The notes below the pieces were generated by a model, which was not told the origin of the DNA, ran no database searches, and saw only the letters and a program-made list of their open reading frames with translations. Both the position numbers and the translations under genes were made by a program. Shown here one piece after another: positions 10,373 through 62,987 of a stretch of 64,000 nt of DNA. The DNA is taken from the NCBI RefSeq assembly GCF_000263735.1, contig NC_017946.1:537348-601347 (forward strand). Reading direction: 5' to 3'. This DNA comes from Pyrococcus sp. ST04 (GTDB lineage Archaea > Methanobacteriota_B > Thermococci > Thermococcales > Thermococcaceae). Within the stretch, counting starts at the first letter, position 1. Every line of letters starts with the position of its first letter.

Positions 10373-11446
10373 TTAAACTCCAAGGTCTTTGAGTATTTTC
10401 TCTATGTCCTTGAGCTTGTCCTCCTCTTTTTCCTCCTCAACCTCTATGTTTCCGAGGGTCGTTATTAGTTCTTGAACTTGTTTCTCTAACCTCTTGAGCT
10501 CTTCGAACTGTAGTCTGAGTTTCTCATAAAACTCCTTTTCTATGGGGGTTACCGGTATTGGGCTCTCTATCTTTTCAGCTATCTCATCCAGCTTCCCTGT
10601 TAGTTCATAGATTGCCCTGTGGATTCTTATAAAGCTCTTCTCTGGGCTCAGCTCTTTCCCATCTTCGTTCATTGGAAGCTTGAGCCTTTTTATTCCAACT
10701 ATGACGGATGTTAGCGAGGAGTACACTTCATCCTCTGGTACCGAGATAACTGCCAGCTTTCTCAGATCTTTGAGAAGCTCTATTAGGGTTTCCTTCAGCT
10801 TTTCAAACTCTTCAACTCCCTTCCCTGTTAGGACGTAGACCTTCGAAAGATCCCTAAGTGAAAGTAGAGCCCTTTTTGCTTGGAGAAGGCCGTCCTTTAT
10901 CCTCTCTGGGGGGAGGTCAATGGTCATAGTTAGTAGATCCAAGAATTCTTTAAGTTCTTGCTCTTTTCTTTCTTCGAGTGTCTGCTCGAATTTCTCTATC
11001 TCTTCCTGGAGTTCTTTTAGGACTTCCTCCTTTAGCGAGTCTTTTACTTGGTTTCTCAGGGTTTCTGGATCAAGCTCTTTGAGTTTTTCAAGAATTTCGT
11101 CAATTTTTGAGGGGAGTGGTTCAAGAACGAGAACTTTGGATTTTAGCTCTTTGTATTCCTTTTCTAGTGAGGATATTTTATCCTGGATTCCCTTAAGCTT
11201 CCAGGATATTATCTCGTCTATGGACTTTTCTTCTTTTTTCTTCTCCTCTATAAGCTTGTCCTTGAATTTACTCAACTCATCCTGGACCCAGGATTTTATC
11301 TTGTCTAACTCCTTTTCCTGCTCATTTAGAAAATCTTTAAGCTCGAAGTACTTTGAGGTGAGTTTATTGGTTAGGTTATTCACATAATACACCAAGAAAC
11401 CGGCTATAGCTATGAGTATGCCGATCACTAGTATGTCCCCTAGCAT
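10373..11446 (-). CDS. Membrane-anchored coiled-coil protein of the che locus (paralog 1)
   Basis: 357 residues: one N-terminal membrane helix (residues 4-24, DILVIGILIAIAGFLVYYVNN), a long charged coiled coil (about 30-170), a helical domain (170-300) and a final coiled coil. Residues 266-330 align with 189-250 of the protein at 22065-22826: LSPEKSFIRIHRAI against LSPDEALIRITSNI, and PVTPIE against AVTPLE, followed by heptads. It lies downstream of cheW in the minus-strand che operon. The topology (helix, then cytoplasmic coil) suggests a scaffold at the receptor array, but this is inference; no family is recognised. Confidence 0.75.
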   Translation of the reverse strand: MLGDILVIGILIAIAGFLVYYVNNLTNKLTSKYFELKDFLNEQEKELDKIKSWVQDELSKFKDKLIEEKKKEEKSIDEIISWKLKGIQDKISSLEKEYKELKSKVLVLEPLPSKIDEILEKLKELDPETLRNQVKDSLKEEVLKELQEEIEKFEQTLEERKEQELKEFLDLLTMTIDLPPERIKDGLLQAKRALLSLRDLSKVYVLTGKGVEEFEKLKETLIELLKDLRKLAVISVPEDEVYSSLTSVIVGIKRLKLPMNEDGKELSPEKSFIRIHRAIYELTGKLDEIAEKIESPIPVTPIEKEFYEKLRLQFEELKRLEKQVQELITTLGNIEVEEEKEEDKLKDIEKILKDLGV

Positions 11447-11501
11447 GCTTGCGGGTCCTCCAAAGGAATAAGGGGTGAAATGTAAATTAAAATTTATGCC
11501 T

Positions 11502-11939
11502 TTAGATGCTCTCGCCGAGCAACTTGTCTAGGTCGAGCATTATCAGTAGTCTCTCTCCGTTGTTTATCTTTGCTATTCCCTTGATGAATCTCATGTCAAC
11601 TTTTGAGGCGAGGGTCTTTGGTGGCTGTTCTATCTGATCTTCTGTTAGCGTTAAAACGTCGGAGACGGCATCTACTATCACACCCACTATCTCTCCGTTG
11701 ACTTCTGCGATTATTATCTTCTTGTTGCTTAGGTCTCCATCGTCGTAGTAACCTAGTAGCTTCTTCAGGTTCACTACCGTTGTTATTTGTCCTCTGAGGT
11801 TTATAACTCCCTCTACGAAGTCTGGGGCGTTTGGTACCCTTGTTATTGGCATCATTTCCTTTATTTCCCTAACCTTCGAGATGTCCAAACAAAACTCCTC
11901 ATTTCCTAACCTGAATGCTACAACCTGTATCTCGGTCAC
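11502..11939 (-). CDS. cheW: Chemotaxis coupling protein CheW
   Basis: 145 residues, a single CheW domain that couples methyl-accepting chemotaxis receptors to the CheA kinase. Typical motifs are [18 protein letters not shown] at the start, the [16 protein letters not shown] turn in the middle and a C-terminal ILDLDKLL-like strand. It starts with GTG at 11939, overlapping the stop of the MCP gene by three bases, with GGGGTGGTAGGAA as ribosome binding region. Cytoplasmic face of the membrane. Confidence 0.95.
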
Positions 11940-13126
11940 TTCCTACCACCCCTAACATTTTCTATTTCGGTGAGAGCTTTGTCTAGGTCTTCTTTAAGCT
12001 TCATAGTCTTTTCTTTAATTGAATCTAGGGTATCAAGGGAGGTCTTTATTGTCTCCACGAGCTGAGTTGCGAAGTTTAGGTTGTCGGAAACGTCTTTTGA
12101 TATTGAATCTATCTTTTCAACGAGCATCTGTACTGAATTTGCCTGCTCGTCGATTCCTTCTGATAGCTCTTTTACCATTGAAGCAGTCTCGTTGGCTCTT
12201 CTTGCTATGTCATCAAAGGCGGCTATAAGCTCTTGAATTGCATCCTTCACTTCCTGGGTTACCCTAGTGTTTTCCTGTATTGATTCTATAACCCTGTTGA
12301 TGTTTTCTTGCATCTCCTTGATTAAGTCCCTAATCTGTTCAGCCGATCTTCTAGATCTGTCGGCCAACTCTCTTATATTCTCTGCAACTACTGCGAACCC
12401 TTTTCCGGCCTCTCCGGCTCTTGCCGCTTCTATGGCTGCGTTCAATGCTAGGAGGTTTGTTTGCCCCGCTATTGATGTTATGACGTAAACTATCTCGTCA
12501 ATTTTCTTTGAGTAGTCCGCAAGGATGTTTACTGCGTTTCCCATTTCTTCACTAACTTCGCTTATCCTTGCAACCTTCATAGCTGCGTTGTCTGATATCT
12601 CCTTACCTTTTTCCGCCATTGACGCTGATTCTAGTGCGAATTCTGAAAGCTGCTGGGCTTGGACGTTCATCTCTTCAATCCCGGCGGAGAGTGTTTGGAT
12701 GTAGTCATTGACCTCCGCTATCTTCATGCTTTCATTCTCTAATCTTGAGACGAGTTCGTTTGTTCTGTCCAGATCGCCTACCTGTATACCTTCTATATCT
12801 GTTTCCAGTTCGGTTGCTGTTTCTTTAGCCCTTTTAATGTGCTCTTCTACGGTTTCTAAGGCTTGGGAAATTTTTCTAGGAGCATATACTGCTGGTCTCT
12901 GTCTTATTCTCTTTTTAACTTCCTCAAGAACCTTTATATCTTCTTCAAAAAGTCCTATTGGGGGAGATACATCTTTTCCTTCGAGAACATCTTTCAGATA
13001 TTGGATGATTTCTCTTGCCAAGGTGTAATCTTCTTTCCTTTTTCCTCCCTGAACTAGAAACAGGCCTACCCCTATTATAAGGAATATGGGGAGAACGTTG
13101 ACTCCTGAGATTGCAGTGAGGATCAA
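11936..13126 (-). CDS. Methyl-accepting chemotaxis protein without an extracellular sensor
   Basis: 396 residues. One N-terminal membrane helix (about 5-25), a short linker without a clear HAMP or Cache domain, then the cytoplasmic signalling coiled coil, whose tip is [17 protein letters not shown]-like (here [20 protein letters not shown]). With no outside domain it probably senses an internal or membrane state, or a partner protein. The start is TTG, supported by AAGGAGG eight bases upstream. It heads the minus-strand operon with cheW and the coiled-coil protein, divergent from cheR. Confidence 0.92.
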
Positions 13127-13421
13127 TTTTCTCGCCTCCTTGGAAAGTTTTTAATTTAGCTGCATGAATAGTTAAGGGTGGCATAATTTGAGCGATTACG
13201 TGTATTATTTGGCCAAAATCTGATAAAAAGTTTTCGTTTTGTCATATTCATGAATCTGAGTAGTTTACTGCCTTCATTTTGAAGTTAAAAAGACCTACAA
13301 GGGTACCTACACAACTACGTGCATAAAAATATTTTTATTAAAGGTCAACGAGTATTGTATAAGGAACGAGAAGCTCTTTAAACTGTTGGATATAAACCAA
13401 CAACCCAGAGAGGGGCTGATT
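13127..13421. promoter_or_regulatory. Divergent promoter region between the two che operons
   Basis: About 295 non-coding bases, AT-rich. On the plus strand, TATA-like stretches are TTTTTATTAAAG near 13333 and CTTTAAAC near 13375, ahead of GAGAGGGG and the cheR ATG. On the minus strand a TTAAAAACTTT-like box precedes the MCP ribosome site. No convincing palindrome is seen. Confidence 0.45.
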
Positions 13422-14261
13422 ATGCAATCCCAGAAAGGATATGAGCTTATTAAGGCCGAGATTTTTAAGAGGTTAGGGGTTAGTGTAGACGCCTACAAGG
13501 ATTCCTACCTGCAGAGGAGGATAAGAGCCAGAATGAGGAAGCTTGGAATAACTGACTACATGGAATACTACAGGTTGCTCAAGACAAATAAGGATGAATT
13601 TGAGGAGCTCTTGTTTACCATAGCAATTAACGTTACGGAATTTTTCAGAGATCCAATAGTTTGGAAGACTTTCCAAAATAAGGTCCTTCCTGAGCTGATA
13701 GAGTTTAAAAAGCAAAAGGGTGTGCGGTCGATAAAGATATGGAGTGCTGCATGTTCCACTGGTCAGGAACCTTACTCGATAGCGATGACACTCTATGAGG
13801 TTCTTGGTCAAAACCTTGGGGGTTTTAGGGTTTCTATACTCGCCACAGATATAGATAGAGAAGCTCTCCAAGCTGCCGTTAGGGGAGAATATCCTGTAGA
13901 TGCCGTTGAAAAGCAGGTTCCAAAGCATATGATTCCAAAATACTTCGATAGAATAAGTGAGGAGAGGTATAGAATAAAGCCCTTCGTAAAAAGGTTGGTA
14001 ACATTTAGGTGGTTAAATCTGCTTTCCTCTCCTTACCCGAAGGGATTTGACGTTATATTCATCCGAAACGTTCTCATTTATATGAACAGGGAGGCCCAGG
14101 AGGAGATATTTAAAAAGCTCTATGACTCTCTCGAGGATCACGGTTATCTCATCCTTGGTAAAACCGAAACAATCCTTGGAAATGCAGCCAAGTTGTTCAA
14201 GTTGTATGATCTTGTCGCTAGGATCTATAAAAAGAATTTGGAGGTGAAGAGGCATGGCTAG
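13422..14261 (+). CDS. cheR: Chemotaxis protein methyltransferase CheR
   Basis: 279 residues. The all-helical N-terminal domain (about 1-75) is followed by an SAM-dependent methyltransferase fold with IWSAACSTGQEPYSIAM as motif I and FDVIFIRNVLIYM as the next acidic/aromatic strand. It methylates glutamates on the cytoplasmic helices of the MCPs. ATG at 13422 follows GAGAGGGGCTGATT; an in-frame TTG at 13386 lacks such a site. First gene of the plus-strand che operon; its end overlaps cheY by eight bases. Confidence 0.95.
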   Translation: MQSQKGYELIKAEIFKRLGVSVDAYKDSYLQRRIRARMRKLGITDYMEYYRLLKTNKDEFEELLFTIAINVTEFFRDPIVWKTFQNKVLPELIEFKKQKGVRSIKIWSAACSTGQEPYSIAMTLYEVLGQNLGGFRVSILATDIDREALQAAVRGEYPVDAVEKQVPKHMIPKYFDRISEERYRIKPFVKRLVTFRWLNLLSSPYPKGFDVIFIRNVLIYMNREAQEEIFKKLYDSLEDHGYLILGKTETILGNAAKLFKLYDLVARIYKKNLEVKRHG

Positions 14262-14616
14262 GATATTGATAGTTGACGATGCAGCGTTTATGAGGATGCT
14301 ACTGAAGAAAATCCTAACGCAGGCCGGCCACCAGGTTGTTGGGGAAGCAAGCAATGGAAAAGAAGCTGTTGAGAAGTACAAGCAACTGAAGCCCGATTTG
14401 GTGACCATGGATATAGTAATGCCAGAGATGGACGGAATTACAGCGGTTAAGGAAATTATGAAGATCGATCCAAATGCCAAGATAATTATGATCACTGCAG
14501 TCGGTCAAGAGGCTAAGGTTATGGAAGCACTCAAGAGTGGAGCCAAGGGATACATAGTGAAGCCATTCCAAGCTCAGAAAGTCATAGAGGAAGTGAACAG
14601 GGTTCTATCGTCTTAA
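14254..14616 (+). CDS. cheY: Chemotaxis response regulator CheY
   Basis: 120 residues, a stand-alone receiver domain. The acidic pocket is D8-D9 and the phosphorylation site D53 (VTMDIVMPEMDG), with T81 and K103 as the switch residues. Phosphorylated by CheA; in archaea the output to the archaellum goes through CheF, encoded at the end of the same operon. Start ATG overlaps the end of cheR. Confidence 0.97.
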   Translation: MARILIVDDAAFMRMLLKKILTQAGHQVVGEASNGKEAVEKYKQLKPDLVTMDIVMPEMDGITAVKEIMKIDPNAKIIMITAVGQEAKVMEALKSGAKGYIVKPFQAQKVIEEVNRVLSS

Positions 14617-14638
14617 TCAAGAATAAAACGGTGATAAC

Positions 14639-15745
14639 ATGCCCCTGCTCAACAAAAAGATTAGGGTACTCGTCGTTGATGACTCTGCATTCATGAGGAA
14701 AATCTTGAAGGACATCATAAACTCTGATCCAGAACTTGAAGTCTGTTGCGAAGCCAGGGATGGGGTTGAGGCTATTGAGATGGTTCAAAAACATAGGCCC
14801 GATGTTATAACCTTAGATATTGAGATGCCTCGAATGAATGGTCTAGATGCTCTTAGGGTTATAATGAAGAAATATCCGACTCCCGTTATCATGATAAGCG
14901 CTCTCACCCAGGAGGGGGCTGAGGCTACAATAAAGGCACTTGAGTATGGTGCGATAGATTTCATACCCAAGCCTTCCTCTTCAATATCAATAAACATGCG
15001 AGAGATGAAGGATGAAATAATAGCGAAGATAAAGGAGGCTGCAAAAGTTCCAAGGAGATTCCTTGAACTTAAGAGAATAAGATTGCTTAGAGCCCAGAAG
15101 GCAAAGAAAACAAAACCCTCAGTCCCTGCAAGGATAGCTGTTGCAATAGCGGCTTCGACAGGTGGCCCGCAGTCATTGCTCAAGATATTCCCAAAGTTTC
15201 CAGAGGATTTAAAGGCTGGGATATTGCTGGTTCAGCACATGCCTCCAGGCTTTACCCGTTCATTCGCAAAGAGGCTTGACAGCGTGTCTAAAATTGACGT
15301 GAAGGAGGCTGAGGAGGGTGACGTAGTAGAGGAGGGCAAAGCATACGTTGCCCCTGGAGACTACCACATGGAGGTTACGCTTAGGAACGGCAAGCCAACG
15401 ATAACGCTCAACAAGAAGCCCAAGATTCACGGTGTAAGACCTGCTGCAGACCCAATGATGATAACTGCAGCCCAGGTGTTTGGAAGGAGGACAGTTGGAG
15501 TAGTTATGACTGGAATGGGAAGAGATGGGGCTCAAGGAATTGTGGAAATAAAGAAGAGGGGTGGAATAACGATTGCTCAAGATAAAGAAACTTCGATAAT
15601 CTTCGGAATGCCAAAAGCCGCAATTGAAACTGGAATGGTTGACTACGTGGTTCCCCTGGATAAAATCCCCGAGACAGTGGTTAAGGCTGTGAACACAATA
15701 CGAGGGGGTGGTGTCATTGGAAGACCTTTCACAGTACCTAGATGA
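14639..15745 (+). CDS. cheB: Protein-glutamate methylesterase/deamidase CheB
   Basis: 368 residues: an N-terminal receiver (D14-D15, phosphosite D60) joined by a basic linker to the C-terminal methylesterase, with the catalytic triad segments [10 protein letters not shown] (Ser), QHMPPGF (His) and [11 protein letters not shown] (Asp). It removes methyl groups from MCPs and may deamidate them. The end overlaps the start of cheA by about 35 bases. Confidence 0.96.
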
Positions 15746-18035
15746 ATTCCTTGCGGATGCGAGGGATAGGATAGATAGCCTGAGCAATGCAATACTAACC
15801 CTTGAAAAGATCGTCAAAGAGGGAGGCAGTGAAGAGGAGAAGATGGAACTAATAAACCAGATATTCAGAGATGCTCACACCTTAAAGGGTACAGCCGCTA
15901 CCATGGGTTTCATGAAGCTCAGTGAGACGGCGCACAAGATGGAAAACTTGTTTGATGCAATCAGAAACGGTCAGGTCGAGCTAACACCAGAATTAGTTGA
16001 TTTAGTTCTTGAGTTCCTTGATGCCATAGAAGCAATGGTTGACAACATAGAGGAGAATGGCAATGAGGGAGACGTAGACGTTTCTGAGCTTTTTGAGAGA
16101 GCTGATGAATTTATGGGGGGTAAAGCTCCAGAAAAAGAAGAGAAAAAGGAAGAAAAGCCTCCAGAAGAAAAGAAAGAGGCTGAGGAGAAAGTAGAGGAAG
16201 TTAAGGTTCCAGAGGGTGGGAAGGTATATCACATAAAAGTGTACTTCCAAAAGGATGCTCCCTTGAAAGGCGTGAGAGCTTTCCTGATTCTTTCGGATCT
16301 TGAAGAGAGGGGTGAAGTTCTCTGGACTAATCCCGAGAGAAAGGTAATCGAAGATGGTAACGCTGATCAAGATGTGATAGAGTTTAAGGTATCATCTAAC
16401 GTTCCCAAAGAGGAACTTGAGAAGGTTATAAAGAGACATCCGGAAGTTGAGAAAGTTGAGATCTTTGAGGAAGGAAAGGGCGAGGAGAAGAAGCCTGAAG
16501 GTGAGAAGGAATACTTAATAAGGGTTTACTTCCAGCCTGATGCTCCTCTTAAGGGTCCAAGAGGATTCTTGATTCTTCAGGATCTTGAGAAGATTGGAGA
16601 GATAGTTGAAACAAATCCGAGTAGGCAAGACATAGAGAATGGAAAGTTTCTTGAGGATAAGTACTTCGAGGTTAAGCTTAGAACGTCAGCTAACGAGAAC
16701 GAGATAAGGGAGATTTTAAAGAAGCATCCGGATGTAGTTAACTTCACGATTTCATCTGTCACTGAAGAGAAGAGGGAAGAAAAGAAAGAGGAAAAAGAAG
16801 AGAAAAAAGAAGTAAAGGCTCCACAACCACCTAAACCACCAAAGAAGCCTCAGAGGATAGAGACTCCTAAAGTGAAAGTTTCAAGGATAATAAAGATAGA
16901 TGTCAGCCACCTCGACAAGCTCATGAACCTAGTTGGAGAGCTCGTGATAACTAAGGGTAGGCTTGAACAGATAGCCGAGAGACTCGGAGACAGAGAACTT
17001 CTTGAAACACTATCAACTCTCTCAAGACTTCTCACAGAGCTACAGGATGAGATAATGGAGATGAGGCTAACCCCAATTGCTGAGGTCTTCAATAAGTTCC
17101 CGAGGATGGTCAGGGAGCTCGCTAGAAAGATGGGTAAGGAAGTTGAGTTCGTTATGGAGGGTGCCGATATAGAGGTTGACAGAACGATCCTTGAAAAGCT
17201 CGGTGATGCTCTAGTCCACCTGCTCAGAAATGCTATTGACCACGGTATAGAACCTCCAGAGGAGAGAGAAGCCAAGGGCAAGCCCAGAGTTGGTAGGGTT
17301 GAGCTGATTGCAAAGAGAGAGAGGAATCACGTTGTGATTATCGTTAGAGATGATGGTAGGGGTATAGACCCAGAGAAAGTTAAGAAGAAGGCCATAGAGA
17401 GAGGTTTAATAACACCTGAAGAGGCCGCAAGCCTGAGTGATGAGGAGGCGATAAACTTAATCTTCCTGCCAGGATTCAGCACTGCAGAGAAAGTCACTGA
17501 CGTTTCTGGAAGAGGAGTTGGAATGGACGTCGTTAAAGAAGTAGTGAAGTCGATGAACGGTTCAATAACAGTTCAAACGGAAGTTGGTAAAGGAACGACC
17601 TTCATACTCAAGCTACCGATTAGTATGGCGATAATCCAGGCATTGCTCATTAGGGTTCAGGATGAAGTCTATGCAATTCCAATTAACAACATACTTGAAA
17701 CAATCGAGGTTGACCCATCGATTCTTAAAACAATCGGTGGTAGGCATGTGATAGTTCTTAGGGGCGAGATAATACCTGTTGTGATGTTACATGAGCTATT
17801 TGGGCTTCCAATACCAGAGGTCGAGAGATTCCCAGCAATAATAGTCGATTATGGTGCCCAGAAAGTTGCAATAGGTGTGGACGAGTTACTTCACAAGAGG
17901 GACATAGTCATCAAGAGCCTGGGCAAGTTCCTCTCCAACATTAGGGGCTTTGCTGGAGCTACAATACTTGGAGACGGTAGCGTAGTTCTTATCATTGACA
18001 TTGGTGGTCTACTTGGAGGTGGATATCATGGCTGA
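15711..18035 (+). CDS. cheA: Chemotaxis histidine kinase CheA with two P2-like domains
   Basis: About 774 residues. P1 phosphotransfer domain with the histidine in [10 protein letters not shown] (about residue 56). Two consecutive, clearly homologous P2-like modules follow at about 172-255 and 266-350 ([18 protein letters not shown] and [18 protein letters not shown]), each flanked by charged Lys/Glu linkers. Next are P3 ([19 protein letters not shown]), the P4 ATPase ([25 protein letters not shown]) and the CheW-like P5. The start is one of two adjacent GTGs (15708/15711) after GAGGGGG, inside the end of cheB. Doubled P2 would give two docking sites for CheY or CheB. Confidence 0.96.
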
Positions 18036-18657
18036 GAGTTTTGAAGAATATATCAAGAATTTGGATGAATTTGCTAAGAGTGCCTTGGTTGAGACTTTCA
18101 ACATAGGCGCATCCCATGCGGCAACAGCATTAAGTCAGATGACTGGAAAAGAGGTCAACATCACGGTTCCAAATCTCAAGATTGTGGCAATAAAGCATGT
18201 ACCTGAGGTCGTTGGTGAGGATGTTAAGGTTGCCGTTTACATTGAACTTGGGAGAGATTTCAGTAGTCATGCCTTCTTCATAGCAGATTACGACGATGCT
18301 CTAAGGATGTTCGACATAATAATGGGTAATCCCCCCGGAACTACGACTGAAATGGATGATATGGTTAAGTCTTCCTTCATGGAAGTTGGTAATATCCTAA
18401 TCTCAGCATTTGCGAATGCATTGAGCGAGTTCTTGGGCATTACCATAGAGCAAAGCCCACCAAGCATGGCAATAGACTTCCTTCCTGCGATACTTGACTT
18501 CGCCCTGGCTGATATTGGTAAGTACTGTGACTACACGATAATACTTGAGACGAAAATAACTATAAGTGGCGTGGAGTTTGAAGAGCACTTTCTCTTATTC
18601 CCGAAGCCAGAGGATATGAAGAAGATTTTGGACAAGCTAATGGGGGGATTCGCATGA
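18028..18657 (+). CDS. cheC: CheY phosphatase CheC (copy 1)
   Basis: 209 residues. Two pseudo-symmetric ExxN phosphatase sites are visible: ETFNIGASHAATALSQM near the start and EVGNILISAFANAL in the second half. It dephosphorylates CheY-P and binds CheD to regulate receptor deamidation. ATG at 18028 lies inside the last codons of cheA and follows GGAGGTGG. Followed by a second cheC-like gene with a four-base overlap. Confidence 0.94.
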   Translation: MAESFEEYIKNLDEFAKSALVETFNIGASHAATALSQMTGKEVNITVPNLKIVAIKHVPEVVGEDVKVAVYIELGRDFSSHAFFIADYDDALRMFDIIMGNPPGTTTEMDDMVKSSFMEVGNILISAFANALSEFLGITIEQSPPSMAIDFLPAILDFALADIGKYCDYTIILETKITISGVEFEEHFLLFPKPEDMKKILDKLMGGFA

Positions 18658-19280
18658 AGAGGAGTGAGTGGTATAAGGACATATTTAAGGAGGCCTCTAA
18701 CATAGCAATATCCCACGCATTAACAGCTCTCTCCCAGATGATAGGTGGTCCTATAGACATGGAACCCCCCGAGGTTGAGATAGTTTCGAGAGTCGAGTTC
18801 CTAAAGAGACTTGCAGAGAGAGGAGTTTCTAACGGTTTCACTGTCATGTTTGACATAACCGAGGGTTTATCAGGTTTAACGATACTTCAGTTCCCTAAAC
18901 AGAGTGCCCTCAACATAACTGCTGTTCTCATGGGAATGGAGCCTGGCAGTGTAACTGAACTCGATGATATGGGAAAGTCAGCTATAATGGAAGTCGGTAA
19001 CATCTTGATCTCAGTATATACAGATATACTTTCGAATCTCATCGGTGAACCCGTCTCATTAAGTCCACCAAAGCCTGCTGAGTCGCTATATGACATAGAG
19101 AAGGAACTTGGCAGACCTGACCTTAGAAATGTTGAAAGTATAATAATATTCAAATCTCGCTTCCACAAGGAAGATATTGGTGTTGAAAGCTTCTTTTACA
19201 TAGTTCCTACTCCTGAGTCATTTACTAAGCTTGTTAAAAGACTAGAAAGTCAAGTAGTTGAAGAGGGAGAGTTTCAATGA
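18654..19280 (+). CDS. CheC-family protein (copy 2)
   Basis: 208 residues, a paralog of the preceding CheC. Both ExxN motifs are kept (EASNIAISHALTALSQM and EVGNILISVYTDIL), so phosphatase activity is plausible. The sequence between the motifs differs considerably, suggesting another partner: another receiver, or the two CheC proteins may share CheD. Overlaps its neighbours on both sides in ATGA-type junctions. Confidence 0.9.
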   Translation: MKRSEWYKDIFKEASNIAISHALTALSQMIGGPIDMEPPEVEIVSRVEFLKRLAERGVSNGFTVMFDITEGLSGLTILQFPKQSALNITAVLMGMEPGSVTELDDMGKSAIMEVGNILISVYTDILSNLIGEPVSLSPPKPAESLYDIEKELGRPDLRNVESIIIFKSRFHKEDIGVESFFYIVPTPESFTKLVKRLESQVVEEGEFQ

Positions 19281-19771
19281 TGACCCAGGAAATTAAGGTT
19301 GGAATAGGCGACTATGCCGTTGGGAAAGGTCGGGGAATAATTAGCACGTATGGGTTAGGGAGCTGTGTAGGCATTACCCTGTACGATAGAGTTACCAAGG
19401 TTGGTGGATTGTTGCATGCTCTATTGCCTGAGGCATCGAGGTATGGAAGTCGAGGGAATCCAGCGAAATACGTTGATACCGGGTTACAATTACTCCTTAG
19501 GGATCTACTAAAGCTCGGTGCCTCTAAAATCAGGCTCGAAGCTAAACTCTTTGGCGGAGCTCACATGTTTGAGAATGTAAAGAGCCAGGATCTAATGATA
19601 GGGAAGAGGAATGTTGAAGTCGCAAAAAGAGAACTCAAAAAGCTGGGAATAAGGCTAGTAGCTGAAGATACTGGGGGCAAGGGGGGTAGAACAATTTACC
19701 TGGATCTATCTACTGGGAAAGTGCGAATGAGAAAGGTTTCGGGAGGGAAGGTTATCGAAAAAATATACTAG
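19277..19771 (+). CDS. cheD: Chemoreceptor glutamine deamidase CheD
   Basis: 164 residues. Catalytic Cys30 in GLGSCVGITLYD and His47 in GGLLHALLPE, plus LFGGAHMF in the second half, are the family signature. It deamidates specific receptor glutamines and is controlled by binding CheC. Two adjacent ATGs (19277, 19280) are possible; the stop of the preceding gene lies between them. Confidence 0.96.
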   Translation: MMTQEIKVGIGDYAVGKGRGIISTYGLGSCVGITLYDRVTKVGGLLHALLPEASRYGSRGNPAKYVDTGLQLLLRDLLKLGASKIRLEAKLFGGAHMFENVKSQDLMIGKRNVEVAKRELKKLGIRLVAEDTGGKGGRTIYLDLSTGKVRMRKVSGGKVIEKIY

Positions 19772-19784
19772 GAGGTGAGGGCAG

Positions 19785-22031
19785 ATGGAGTTTAAGAAGA
19801 AAGTAGCAGGGACTGTCATAATAGGAATGCTACTATTAGCAACAATAGCAGGCGTACTAATGATATATGGTTCCAAGAAAGCTGCTTCGTCAGCAAAAGC
19901 GAGAGTATTACCTGTTATGGAGAAGTTTGCAGAAAACGAAGTAATGGCTGAAGTGAACAGAATTGGCGGAGAATTTGATGCATTCTTTGAGGAAATTATA
20001 GTGCTTGGAGAAGTAGCCCAGGGGGCGGTATTAGAGTCCCTCCAGGATATGCATGATGTATATAGGGTAAACTTTGGAGATCCTGGTTATGAAAAGTTAC
20101 TTCGTGTTTTCCTACTTAAGAAGTTTAAGGTAATTAAAGACGCTGAATCAAGGGTTTACTACGTTTACTTTGGCGACATAAATGGAAACATGTACATGTA
20201 TCCAGAAGAAGAACTTCCTGAAGGATATGACCCTAGGGTTAGACCATGGTATAAACAGGCTGCCGAAGCAGGTCATCCAGTATTTACTGAGCCATACCCA
20301 GATGCAACAACTGGGAAGTGGGTTATAACTTACGCTGTTCCAGTTTACCAAAATGGGAAGCTAATTGGTGTCGTTGGTCTTGATGTGTTCATAGACACTC
20401 TTGTTAAGGCGATAAAAGAGTCAAAAGTTGGTAAGACGGGTTACGCGTTTATCCTGAATAAGAATGGACTTACAATAGTTCATCCAAATGAAGAGTACAT
20501 AATGAAACTCAATGTAAACGATTATCCCCAGTTAAAACCCATAGCTGATTTTCTCAAGAGTGGAAAAGAAGAAGGAATAGTTAAGTATGAGTGGCAGGGT
20601 GTCAAGGTTATAGCAGCTGGGAGGAGGATTAAGGGAACTGACTGGTATGTATTTGCAAGGGCTCCTGAAGAGGAGATTACAGGCCCTGCAATTGAAGCAA
20701 TCCATCTAATGGAGTCAGATATGAGAAAGAGTGCAACAATAACTGTAGTATTCTTAGTGGTTCTTTCCCTTGTATTCATAGCAATAATGTACAAGATAAT
20801 CGCCTCATCATTAAGGCCTTTAGTTGGACTTGCAGAGGCTGCAAGGGCCCTTGCAGAGGGTAGGCTAAGTGAGGTAAGAGAGAAGCTTGCTAAGATAAGA
20901 TACTTGGAGAACGACGAGATTGGAGCGTTGATAAGGGCTTTTGAGGCTGTAGGAAAAGACATGATAGGAACTTTACAAGCAATAAGCAAGAGGCTTGAGA
21001 GGTTAGCCGAGGGAGACCTAAGCAATGGTCTTACGGTTGAAGCGAAAGGTGAGCTTAGAGATGTAATAGAGGACGTTAAGACGGTTACCCAGAGGCTTAA
21101 GGAGACCATGGGCATGCTAATTGACATGACAAATGAACTTGAGAAGAAGGCAAATGTCCTCGCACAAGTTGCGAATAATGTTACTGAGTCAATCAACCAG
21201 GTTACGGAGGCAATCCAGCAGGTTAGTACGGAGGCCCAGAGACAGCAAGAGACCATCAACGAAATTACCGAGGGTGTTAGGCTAGTGTCACAAGTCAGTG
21301 AAGAGAGCGTAAGGGCAATGGACGAGTTTGAGGCTGCGGTCAACGAAGTCGTCAACATAGCCAACGAAGGTAGCCAGAAGGGAGATGAGGCCCTCCAGAG
21401 AATCAGTGACATTCAAGAGATGATGAATGCCATCGAAGAGTCCGTTAGTAAAGTGGCAGAGATGAGCAGGAACATAGAGGAGATAACAAATGTTATTACA
21501 AATATTGCAGAGCAGACGAACTTGCTGGCACTTAATGCAGCTATAGAGGCGGCAAGAGCTGGAGAAGCTGGAAGAGGATTCGCGGTAGTTGCTCAAGAGA
21601 TCAGAAAGCTTGCAGAGGAGAGCAAGCAGGCTGCTGACAACATAAAGAGCATAATTGATCAGATAACCGACGAGATCCAGGAGGCAGTAGAAACAACGAA
21701 GAAAGGAGTCCAGGTAATCGGAGAATCATCGGATACCCTCAGGGATTCTATAGCTTACTTGGGCAACATAGCTGAGTTGCTCAGAGAAACGAGTGACAGG
21801 ATGGGCAATGTTAAGTCTCAGATCCTTAAGACGCAGGAAGAAATCGAGAATGCTCTCAGAGCCCTTGAAAACCTTGCAGCGAGTGCTGAAGAAACGACGG
21901 CGAGTGCTGAAGAAGTCAGCTCTGCAATGGAGGAGCAGACTGCTGCAATTGAAGAACTTAGGAGAGCCTCACAAGATCTCAAAGAAATTGTTGAAAAGCT
22001 TAGGGGGGTTATATCAAGATTCAAGCTTTAG
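19785..22031 (+). CDS. Methyl-accepting chemotaxis protein with dCache sensor
   Basis: 748 residues. First membrane helix about 8-28; outside sensor domain about 35-305 with dCache features ([49 protein letters not shown]); second membrane helix about 318-338; HAMP ([18 protein letters not shown]); then a long signalling coil with the tip [20 protein letters not shown]. The DPRxRPWY motif is typical of Cache domains that bind amino acids or carboxylates, but the ligand is not predictable. ATG follows GGAGGTGAGGGCAG. Confidence 0.94.
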
Positions 22032-22064
22032 TTTCCTTTCACAAATTTTTAGGAGGTGAGTAAG

Positions 22065-22826
22065 ATGGACGTGTTCAGCCTCATAGTAATCCTCGTGGCA
22101 ATAATCCTGGCAGTACTGCTCTCTAACATTATGGTGTCTAAGATGATGTCTCAGCAAATGAAAAATATACAGGCACTTATAGCATCGGCGACCTTAGAGG
22201 CCCCAACTGGATATGAAAGACCATCTAGGCAAGTGCCTGAATCTAAGCCGGCAGAGAAAGCTAAGGAGGCTAAGACTCAGGTTCAACCAACAACTCCAGG
22301 TGTAAATGAGGAGGAAATACTCAAGAAACTTAGGCAGGTAATCAATGAAAAAGTCCAAAACGTGTTGGAGGAAGCAAAGAAGAAGAAAGAGAGGTTACTA
22401 ATGCTCTTAGATGTTGCAAGGGGTTATGCCCTTGGATTCATAAGTGAAGACGAGTACAACGCATTCCTGATGAAAGTGCTTTCAGAGCTTGATGAGTTCA
22501 AGAGGTTATGGCTTGCTAGGTTCCCATCTCAGAGTGACAGGGATAGGCTGAACCAAATGATAAACTATGTACTAAGAACGAAGTTGCCAATAGAGGTTAG
22601 GGAGAAAGGAAAGGAGGGCACGGTTAGGCTATCGCCGGATGAGGCATTGATAAGGATTACTTCCAACATAAATAGTGCAATATCAATATTAGATGACCTT
22701 ATAAAGAAGAGAGGAGAAAACCCAGCCGTAACACCACTTGAGATCCAACTCTCCCAAGAGGTTGAGAAGTTAAGGAGAAAAGTTGAACAACTTGAGGCGA
22801 GGCTCCAAGAGCTAGAGGCCCTCTAA
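22065..22826 (+). CDS. Membrane-anchored coiled-coil protein of the che operon (paralog 2)
   Basis: 253 residues from ATG 22065, which follows AGGAGGTGAGTAAG; a GTG at 22056 is inside that site. One N-terminal membrane helix (4-24), a Pro/Ala/Lys-rich linker (45-80), a helical domain (82-220) and a C-terminal coiled coil. Residues 189-250 align with 266-330 of the protein at 10373-11446. Position between a transmembrane receptor and cheF suggests a structural or adaptor role in the archaeal chemosensory array. I know no named family for it. Confidence 0.75.
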   Translation: MDVFSLIVILVAIILAVLLSNIMVSKMMSQQMKNIQALIASATLEAPTGYERPSRQVPESKPAEKAKEAKTQVQPTTPGVNEEEILKKLRQVINEKVQNVLEEAKKKKERLLMLLDVARGYALGFISEDEYNAFLMKVLSELDEFKRLWLARFPSQSDRDRLNQMINYVLRTKLPIEVREKGKEGTVRLSPDEALIRITSNINSAISILDDLIKKRGENPAVTPLEIQLSQEVEKLRRKVEQLEARLQELEAL

Positions 22827-22839
22827 TGGGGGCACAGAA

Positions 22840-23865
22840 ATGGCGATCGCTGAGACTAGAGTTAAAGTGGCTATTCAGTCATCTTGGAAAAGTATGAGGG
22901 GAGTTAATTGGAGAGATGCAATAGCCCAGTTAGATTCGGATAGGTTGGTTATTAAATACCTTAAAATGGGCGAAGTTGTTAGTGAGGATAGTTTTCCGTT
23001 TTCTTCGTTAAGTGATATTAGCGTGAGAATTCCAGATGAACTAAAACTTAATCCTGAGAAGGAGCACTTTGGAATGAAATTTTACATTCCCACTAGGGGA
23101 GAGGTTCTTCTAATTTTGACCATTGAGGAAAACCTCCTGATATATGATGAGAAGAAGTTTCTCGAGTTCATACACAAGATCTTTGAGACTCTCATAAATG
23201 GAAAACCTGCGATGATTCAACTTGCGAGAATAGTTGGTGGGGCAATAAATATGGAGTCAAAATGGCAACAAGGTTGGTTGAGAGTTGTGAAGGTTAAATC
23301 AGCCAGAACTCAAAAAACTGAGAGAAGTGTTGTTGTCATCACAGAAGAAAAGAAGCCAATATCGATATTCTCTGACATCGAAGATATAGAGATTGAAGAA
23401 GTCGATATGAATGGGAAAAAAGTGAGGGCTTGGAAGATAAGGCACTTCCACATAAATCAGAGTGTAACCTCCTACCTTTACATCCCTGAGAAGCAAACTC
23501 AACTGTTCGTCTTAAGGTACCTTCTCAAGTACAACCCAGCTACCATGGAGTTCATAATGAAGATTGCGGATGACTTCCCAAGCCTTAAGGCAGAGTTCCA
23601 GGAATTCATGGAAAGGGAACTTAGGGAACTCGAGGCGCTTGATGAGATGGAGAAGCAGATATTAGTTGCACTATACTCCGGAATCGACCCTCTTGAACTT
23701 CATCAATTCCTTGGAATAACTGAAAAGGAGATCGAGGAAATCTATGATAGGATGATAGATAAGGGATTGCTAAAAATAATCATGATAAGGAAGGTTGTCG
23801 ATTTAACAAATGAAGGAAGGAGATTAGTGAATAAGCTCCTCAAGTATGGGCTTGTTTCAATGTGA
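22840..23865 (+). CDS. cheF: CheF, adaptor between Che system and archaellum (DUF439)
   Basis: 341 residues. N-terminal region with SWKSMRGVNWRDA and a pleckstrin-like beta-rich domain, a repeated half around VVKVKSARTQKTERSVVVI, then a C-terminal winged helix (LDEMEKQILVALYSGIDP). This matches archaeal DUF439/CheF, which binds CheY-P and the archaellum motor. It is the last gene of the che operon. Its 3' end overlaps the convergent DUF257 gene by 26 bases. Confidence 0.88.
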   Translation: MAIAETRVKVAIQSSWKSMRGVNWRDAIAQLDSDRLVIKYLKMGEVVSEDSFPFSSLSDISVRIPDELKLNPEKEHFGMKFYIPTRGEVLLILTIEENLLIYDEKKFLEFIHKIFETLINGKPAMIQLARIVGGAINMESKWQQGWLRVVKVKSARTQKTERSVVVITEEKKPISIFSDIEDIEIEEVDMNGKKVRAWKIRHFHINQSVTSYLYIPEKQTQLFVLRYLLKYNPATMEFIMKIADDFPSLKAEFQEFMERELRELEALDEMEKQILVALYSGIDPLELHQFLGITEKEIEEIYDRMIDKGLLKIIMIRKVVDLTNEGRRLVNKLLKYGLVSM

Positions 23866-61188: not shown

Positions 61189-61200
61189 AGTGTGATAGCC

Positions 61201-61953
61201 ATGGAGGAGGAGATAGACATAAGGGAGGCACTGGCGAACGGGGAAGACTTGGATAAGATACTGATAATGGCAAAGTACGAGGAGGATGTGCTGAAGAAGC
61301 TTATAGAGTTGCTTGACGACGACCTCTGGACGGTGGCCAAGAACGCTTTGGCGATAATAATGGTGATAGCCAAGAGCAGGGATGACCTTTACGAACCGTT
61401 GATCAAGAAGCTCTTCGCGATGATAAAGAAGAGCGAGGCCATCCCGCTAACTCAGGAAATAGCTAGGGCCTTTGGCCAGATCGCAAAGGAAAAGCCAGAG
61501 CTCATTAGATCCCTCATCCCAGTGCTATTCGCCAACTACAGAATAGGGGACGCTAAGACCAAGATAAACGTTGGGTATGCGATAGAGGAGATAGCTAGGG
61601 CAAACCCCGAGCTCATGAAGTCCATAGCTAGGGACTTCGCGGAAATGCTGGTCTCTAAGAGAAAGGAGGACAAACTTGCGGCTCTTAACTTCATAGAGGC
61701 CATGGGGGAAAACAACTTCAGGTTCGTTAGCCCCTATCTTCCCAGAATAATAAACCTCCTCCACGACAAGGACGAGGTCGTGAGGGCCAGTGCCGTTGAG
61801 GCCTTAGTTCACTTAGCCACGCTAAACGATAAGCTCAGGAAGGTCATAATACGCAGGCTGGAAGAGTTTGATGATCCCAGTGACCTTGTTATGAAGGCCG
61901 TCAAGGAGGGCCTCTCGAAGCTCACCCTTCTTGAGAAGTCTCAGCCTCAATGA
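61201..61953 (+). CDS. HEAT-repeat protein
   Basis: 250 residues, all helical, built of about six HEAT-type repeats (for example [20 protein letters not shown] and [20 protein letters not shown]). Such solenoids are protein-interaction platforms. ATG 61201 lies 12 bases after the TrmO-like gene. The last 32 bases overlap the convergent coiled-coil gene. Partner unknown. Confidence 0.8.
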
Positions 61954-62902
61954 TTCCTTCCTCGACCAGCATCTTTACTGCTTGTGTTATCCTCTCGAGC
62001 TCCTTCCTTAGCCTCTCGTTCTCCTTCTTGAGGTCTTCATTCTCCTTCATGAGGGCTTTTACTGTCTTTGCCAGCTCTTCAACCTTGCTCCTTGGGATGT
62101 AGTTCCTCTCTATAATCCTTAGGGCCTCCTTCGGGTCATAGCTACCGGTTATCTTCGCGAGCCTTATCCTTATCTCCTTCATCTCCTCCGCGAGCTTCCC
62201 GTACTCCTCAACTTTCTTCTCTATCTCCTCAACCTTCTTCGTTCCCTCCTGGAGCTTGTTGAGCTTCTCCCTAAGCTCCTTTATCACCCTCTCCCTAGCC
62301 TCGAGCTTCCTCCTGAGCTCCACGTTCTCCCTGACTATGCTGTCGTACCTCTCTATTATCTCCTTCACTAGCTCTGGACTCGCTGAGTTCATCCTTTCCT
62401 CAATTTCCCTAACCTTCTCCCCAACTATCTCCTCGACCCTCTCCTCGATCCTCTCCCTCAACCTCTTCTCAATCCTCTCCGCCACCTCCAGCGGGTAAGA
62501 GAGCATCTTCTCCTCCATCTCAGTTAGCCTCGGGAGTATTCTCTCTACGTTAGATATGAGGAGTGTCCTCCTATCGAGCTCGTCTAAGATCCCCTTTATG
62601 TCACTAATTTCCTTCTCGATCCTCTTGAAGTTGTTCTCAGTGTCTGTCCTCAACCCATCTAGCTTTGAGAAGAGGGAGTATATCTTCTCCCTGAGGTCAT
62701 CTATGTCCTGGCTGAGTTCCCTCTTGGTCGCGACGAGGGCCGCGAGGGCAAGTATTGAATAATCCCCAAGCCTCTCTGAATCGGCCAGGGCACTCTTCAC
62801 GCTCTCCCATTCTCTCAGCTCTTTCAGCCCCTCGACCACTTCAGGATAATGTTCCTGAAAGAAGGCCCAAGTGGCCCTCTCCTCCTTTTTGCCGCCGAAC
62901 AT
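61922..62902 (-). CDS. Large coiled-coil protein, unknown function
   Basis: 326 residues from ATG 62902 (GGGATGGTGGT before it). After a small N-terminal part ([20 protein letters not shown]) nearly the whole protein is heptad-rich coiled coil with high Glu/Lys/Arg, broken by the segment [20 protein letters not shown]. No membrane helix. It may be cytoskeletal, SMC-like or a scaffold. Tail-to-tail overlap with the HEAT-repeat gene. Confidence 0.7.
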
Positions 62903-62987
62903 ACCACCATCCCATAACATAATCAGCATCGTTCTATTTAAGACTTCCTAGGATAGTTGCTAATCCTCCCGCAAATTGGTGATAAAT

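Follow-up and report, generated by a model that had tools for sequence, protein, structure and literature searches.

A paralogous pair of membrane-anchored proteins in the chemotaxis locus of Pyrococcus sp. ST04, candidate accessory tethers of the Thermococcaceae chemotaxis–archaellum system

The chemotaxis (che) genes of the archaeon Pyrococcus sp. ST04 lie within a stretch of 64,000 nucleotides (positions 537,348 to 601,347 of contig NC_017946.1), termed ‘the window’ in what follows, of a complete Thermococcaceae chromosome of 1,736,885 bp. Two divergent che transcripts leave the interval 13127-13385 of the window. The leftward one reads mcp-cheW-P0002 and the rightward one cheR-Y-B-A-C-C-D-mcp-P0003-cheF, where mcp stands for the gene of a methyl-accepting chemotaxis protein (MCP). 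P0002 and P0003 are the proteins discussed here. A preliminary description of the window, made from the letters of the DNA, proposed that they are paralogs, each with a single N-terminal membrane helix, a helical middle and a C-terminal coil, and that no named che family covers them. Both open reading frames are present where it had placed them, that of P0002 on the minus strand, and so are their neighbors: P0002 follows mcp-cheW, and P0003 sits between a dCache-type MCP gene and cheF. The start codon of P0003 is an ATG at 22065 served by a strong ribosome-binding site, AGGAGGTGAG; the majority of its orthologs begin at the equivalent position, not at that of the GTG at 22056. The pair, we conclude, are real, undescribed, lineage-specific proteins belonging to a known system.

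On sequence grounds, P0002 and P0003 form one paralogous family, derived from one ancestral gene. BLASTP aligns them with an E-value of 1e-9 and 30% identity over 159 amino acids. When the whole genome is queried with P0003, P0002 is the sole second match (E 1.4e-6), and in whole-genome searches each is the other's only second match. Their orthologs cross-match too: searching with any member of one set recovers members of the other. Alignments of 23 P0002 and 25 P0003 orthologs, compared by hhalign, match with a probability of 96.4 and E 1.1e-9 over 147 columns. The domain that precedes the C-terminal coil, which we call the ‘head’, gives a probability of 95.5 and E 1.6e-8 when the coil is left out; the best of 200 column-shuffled controls reaches E 0.004, and the P0002 stalk against P0003 gives E 0.009. 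The coil-free head is thus still significant, and the proposed paralogy, borne out at the profile level, is not a coiled-coil artefact. The block that had first caught the eye (PVTPIE in P0002, AVTPLE in P0003) is real, and lies, with LSPEKSFIRIH and LSPDEALIRIT, respectively, within the best-conserved part of the alignments.

The two proteins are built to a similar plan (Table 1). Scanned with a 19-residue hydropathy window, each has one N-terminal hydrophobic stretch, far above the next best segment, as had been described. Such a stretch is present in 48 of 48 aligned members of the family, four P0002 members scoring only 1.5-1.6. The flank that follows it carries a net positive charge in P0002 and is close to neutral in many P0003 proteins, and hydropathy and flanking charge together make it likely that the C-terminal parts of both are cytoplasmic. 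AlphaFold models, built from alignments of 5 sequences, predict the same order of elements in each: three helices, a beta hairpin, a helix and a C-terminal coil. For P0003 the head is confident, with predicted local distance difference test scores (pLDDT) mostly of 86-95 from about residues 100 to 220, and is followed by the coil at 227-255; residues 23-83 fall below 50. The P0002 model, with helices 2-105 and 127-177 ahead of the head, is of lower confidence (mean pLDDT 60). Coils are thus predicted at both C-termini, as anticipated, and the ‘helical middle’ survives in part: it fits the predicted stalk of P0002, but the middle of P0003 is a low-complexity linker with pLDDT below 50. The stalk varies from 146 to 163 amino acids across the 23 orthologs, about 22-24 nm if helical, and its sequence is weakly conserved; the linker varies from 44 to 59. 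We read P0002 as a rigid tether and P0003 as a flexible one, with a head common to both.

Table 1. Features of the P0002–P0003 locus and of associated genes. Positions are those of the window unless a locus is named.
Feature	Position	Strand	Description
P0002	10373..11446	-	357 aa: N-terminal membrane helix, long helical stalk, head domain, C-terminal coil, 25-residue tail
P0002 membrane helix	11381..11437	-	about residues 4-22; hydropathy 2.62, second best 0.96
P0002 stalk	10916..11380	-	residues 23-177, predicted helical; length kept, sequence weakly conserved
P0002 head	10547..10915	-	residues 178-300; helices 180-207, 211-235, 239-253, hairpin, helix 268-293; predicted model
P0002 C-terminal coil	10451..10546	-	residues 301-332, in invariant PVTPIEKEFYEKL region; alignment and model
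cheW	11502..11939	-	adjoins P0002
Short MCP	11936..13126	-	one membrane helix, without extracellular sensor domain
Tandem EarA-like boxes	13293..13312	+	ACCTACAA and ACCTACAC, 12-bp period; upstream of cheR
cheR, cheY, cheB, cheA, cheC, cheC, cheD, dCache-type MCP	13386..22031	+	cheR/Y/B/A/D named by sequence reading and cluster position
P0003	22065..22826	+	253 aa from ATG: membrane helix, flexible linker, head domain, C-terminal coil
P0003 membrane helix	22077..22136	+	hydropathy 3.13, second best 0.98
P0003 flexible linker	22137..22310	+	E/S/K rich, low complexity; pLDDT below 50
P0003 head	22311..22715	+	helices 85-126, 131-155, 159-173, beta hairpin, helix 194-218; pLDDT mostly 86-95
P0003 C-terminal coil	22734..22820	+	heptad coil; predicted model
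cheF	22840..23865	+	PF04283 (= DUF439); 13 nt after P0003
HEAT-repeat protein, PH0542 type	61192..61953	+	next to earA/arl
Coiled-coil protein, K361 type	61922..62929	-	adjoins HEAT gene and earA
ArlDE	L103:5179-6435		own genome

No named family covers the pair, as had been supposed. Sequence searches of Pfam, NCBIfam and PDB with both proteins returned only generic coiled-coil or below-cut-off matches. Neither the CheF model (PF04283), which matches the neighboring gene, nor the MCP signaling domain (PF00015) matches P0002 or P0003. With a Foldseek threshold of E below 0.001 against PDB, no fold qualified for either model; the best matches (E 0.2 for P0003, 0.03 for P0002) were generic helical bundles. 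Homology of the head to ArlDE was considered and rejected: the P0003-side alignment (A2) matches ArlDE at E 0.024, and the match of the P0002-side alignment (A1), at E 2.6e-5, is confined to stalk and coil, and so is not homology of the head.

Several known proteins resemble the pair in part. CheF is likewise archaea-specific and bound to the che cluster; it links Che output to ArlCDE and adjoins P0003, but is soluble, has PH domains and is spread across che-bearing archaea. The preliminary description had treated cheF and DUF439 as two families; they are one and the same (PMC2666748). Crenarchaeal ArlX (FlaX), compared here by description only, also combines one membrane helix with a cytosolic, ring-forming part, and according to the literature is next to the motor, but its gene is in the arl cluster of Crenarchaeota, organisms without chemotaxis, whereas P0002 and P0003 belong to che clusters. 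The short, single-helix MCP of the P0002 operon resembles the pair in its N-terminal membrane helix and its long helical body in the cytoplasm, and unlike the pair it carries PF00015. The halobacterial protein OE2401F, like the pair, is an extra component restricted to its lineage; it acts between CheF and the archaellum, as the pair may do, and is essential for switching in Halobacterium salinarum (PMC2666748); it has HEAT repeats in place of the P0002/P0003 head.

The two proteins are closely linked to che genes. In 30 of 30 genomes cheF immediately follows P0003, at a spacing of -19 to 24 nt, and this adjacency holds while the gene upstream varies (mcp or cheD). P0002 adjoins cheW in all 28 che-bearing loci examined, on the same strand in Pyrococcus and tail-to-tail in Thermococcus. 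In many Thermococcus it is divergent from earA, the archaellum regulator, and hence lies between the che and arl clusters. Genome G021 illustrates a complete arrangement: K361-HEAT-PQQ-cheF-P0003-mcp-cheD-cheC-cheC-cheA-cheB-cheY-cheR / cheW-P0002 / earA-methyltransferase-arl; its P0002 and cheF genes are frameshifted. The pair might conceivably be passenger genes, kept by linkage and of no use in taxis, and in agreement with this they are restricted to one lineage and are lost along with the cluster by deletions. We hold this to be highly improbable: the head is under strong purifying selection (ratio of nonsynonymous to synonymous rates, dN/dS, 0.03-0.07 where measurable), and the adjacencies are kept through inversions and changes of gene order. 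Minor variations also occur at these loci. The short MCP was not found in G021 (L071) or at L077, where cheW is kept; cheA is split into two reading frames in G031 (L069:6312-8689); and the K361-type coiled-coil protein occurs elsewhere beside che or arl clusters.

We ran the head profile on 115 genomes of the phylum to which Pyrococcus belongs and on 295 of another archaeal phylum. True family members are confined to the Thermococcaceae. Among the 295 there is no convincing homolog; the best outside match (E 8e-5), a short stretch in a protein read by sequence as a CRISPR effector subunit, was judged to be due to chance. Within the 91 genomes of the family, P0003 occurs in 31 of the 33 that possess a full che system and in 0 of the 58 that do not; P0002, in any state, occurs in 34, four of which are without che. 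The Fisher tests of these associations ignore phylogeny, and are descriptive only. The distribution is thus tied to che genes, as the preliminary description expected, although its proposal does not hold for archaeal receptor arrays at large. Genomes G010 and G011 have CheW, CheF and MCPs and lack both P0002 and P0003; the pair is therefore a lineage-specific accessory, not a general part of archaeal arrays.

The distribution of P0002 also follows that of a motor protein. ArlDE occurs in two lengths, 266-317 and 373-494 amino acids, the difference being an acidic low-complexity insert. Wherever P0002 occurs in a classifiable genome, ArlDE is of the long form (30 of 30, against 0 of 31 for the short form), and the long form goes with P0003 too; G010 and G011 have the short form. 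ArlCDE has no equivalent of the ArlX membrane helix (PMC8978795), and P0002 might supply an ArlX-like anchor or stator for this switch ring, P0003 being a CheF-facing version of it. The match with long ArlDE speaks for such an anchor, as does the position of P0002 beside the arl region in many Thermococcus, but archaella without either protein are common in Thermococcaceae and seven long-ArlDE genomes are without P0002, so that we regard the idea as distinctly unlikely. Six of these seven have a large protein whose CheW-like domain is divergent; in G036 and G075, the two examined, this protein is the CheA of a small che cluster of another type beside arl. The seventh, G060, has no recognized che genes. 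The small cluster (L110 in G036, L111 in G075) is divergent from the arl operon and comprises this CheA, CheY, a CheF-like protein and a PQQ propeller; CheC-like and HEAT proteins were seen in G036, whose whole genome gave no MCP match. A further associate of the long form is the PH0542-type HEAT-repeat protein, found in nearly all long-ArlDE genomes searched and in none with short ArlDE. The one in the window is possibly the counterpart of OE2401F.

Natural deletions of the che cluster are informative in another way. In G070 (L065:7160-9193) the cluster has been deleted between P0002 and P0003, leaving a natural chimera that follows P0002 to about residue 324 and ends in ELSTI, the last residues of P0003 in its relative G052; cheF lies 12 nt downstream. 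The junction falls in a short stretch common to both genes, around GAGGAG(C/T)TGAG, where the two paralogs recombined. Genomes G026 and G040 gave no CheW, CheF or MCP match and retain archaella genes, as well as an intact P0002 (72 of 75 invariant columns in G026, 75 of 75 in G040). A cheF remnant follows P0002 by about 30 nt in G026, and G029 has a broken P0002 together with remnants of cheW and mcp. Branch counts for the orphan P0002 genes of G026 and G040 reveal no significant relaxation of selection, with synonymous sites saturated.

P0002 outlasting the receptors leans towards a link to the CheF/archaellum side. The preliminary description had offered an undescribed component either of the array or of the connection from receptors to CheF and the archaellum; the second part is the one that this evidence favors. 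The description pointed the right way but claimed too wide a scope. A purely receptor-directed role nonetheless has points to commend it. The pair might bind CheW/CheA or the tips of MCPs and, at high temperature, stabilize the array or set its spacing, while playing no part at the archaellum; this would suit the constant pairing of P0002 with cheW, the strict occurrence of P0003 with full che systems, a stalk comparable in length, by our own estimate, with the cytoplasmic hairpin of MCPs, and the absence of both proteins wherever the small che cluster occurs, one such genome, G036, being without receptors. Yet the neighbor of P0003 is always cheF and never cheA or cheW, P0002 is intact in genomes without MCP, CheW or CheF, and che-bearing G010 and G011 manage with neither protein. 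On balance we think this role somewhat unlikely.

The EarA motif, A(C/G)(C/G)TACA(T/C), has been published for the arlB0 promoters of Thermococcales (PMC10665913). Of 26 genomes, 24 carry EarA-like boxes (ACCTACAC/T) ahead of cheR (the window and loci L069, L070, L077 and L127-L146), at about -77 to -105; 1.3 genomes with a box are expected from mononucleotide shuffles, the genomes being related. In several genomes the boxes form a 12-bp tandem, and they precede an AT-rich, TATA-like stretch. The cheR operon, which includes P0003, is therefore probably in the EarA regulon, and the boxes suggest joint control of archaella and chemotaxis. Consistent with this, a histone mutant of Thermococcus kodakarensis shows a joint decrease of the fla and che operons (PMC8155482). 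P0002 itself has no EarA-like box ahead of it in Thermococcus (0 of 16), and there it therefore does not share the cheR signal.

What might the pair do? Cryo-electron tomography (cryo-ET) quoted in two papers shows the arrays and archaella of T. kodakarensis both attached to one polar cone (PMC6509185, PMC8978795), and cryo-ET of Pyrococcus furiosus shows a polar cap beneath the membrane, at a distance of about 35 nm (PMC5517150). CheF is bound by ArlCDE, itself devoid of a membrane anchor (PMC8978795), and CheF is thought to dock on ArlCDE via its PH domains (PMC9126983). The adjacency of P0003 to cheF, the kept length of the P0002 stalk and the common head would suit proteins that keep array, CheF and motor in one place. 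We tentatively favor the reading that P0002 and P0003 are accessory membrane tethers of the Thermococcaceae chemotaxis–archaellum system, joining receptor array, CheF/ArlCDE switch and polar cap. It starts from the observed paralogy, predicted architecture, distribution, neighborhood and conserved stalk length; topology, pairing, partners and tethering are what we infer. Each protein would be anchored by one helix and would present the same helical head and coil to the cytoplasm. P0003, expressed with CheF, would be a flexible leash that probably holds CheF, and hence the docking site for phosphorylated CheY (CheY-P), near the array and motor at the membrane. P0002, with its stalk of about 23 nm, would probably hold its head a set distance beneath the membrane, level with the CheW/CheA baseplate, the ArlCDE ring or the polar cap. 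Heads or coils would pair, or share a partner, and so keep receptor patches, CheF and motor at the archaellated pole. A bolder form, in which the two are the missing physical connectors of arrays, CheF/ArlCDE switch and polar cone—P0002 a rigid ruler that sets the distance from membrane to cone, P0003 a flexible CheF leash, the two paired by their heads—strikes us as unlikely.

Several observations weigh against the tether reading. Haloarchaeal CheF works, and G010 and G011 exist, without either protein, so that a tether is not strictly needed; nor does the long-ArlDE motor need P0002, as the seven genomes without it attest. P0002 lies at the edge of che deletions, and its survival in G026 and G040 may be a recent leftover. 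Its model is of modest confidence, the association counts are uncorrected for phylogeny, and topology, partners and localization belong to the inferred side of the argument. The cap itself might, alternatively, be built from P0002 and P0003, whose predicted span (a stalk of about 23 nm plus head) is of the same order as the gap of roughly 35 nm between membrane and cap. This we consider very unlikely: polar caps occur outside the Thermococcaceae (PMC5517150, PMC8978795) and the pair does not, among the genomes sampled, and the cap is a sheet that is not continuous with the membrane.

As candidate tethers, P0002 and P0003 are concrete, genetically tractable proteins that may keep the arrays, CheF and the archaellum motor at a common pole, and that may anchor ArlCDE, which has no membrane helix of its own. 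Together with the EarA-like boxes, the archaellum-linked HEAT protein and the receptor-less small che cluster, they make the archaellum–taxis module of the Thermococcaceae testable as a unit.

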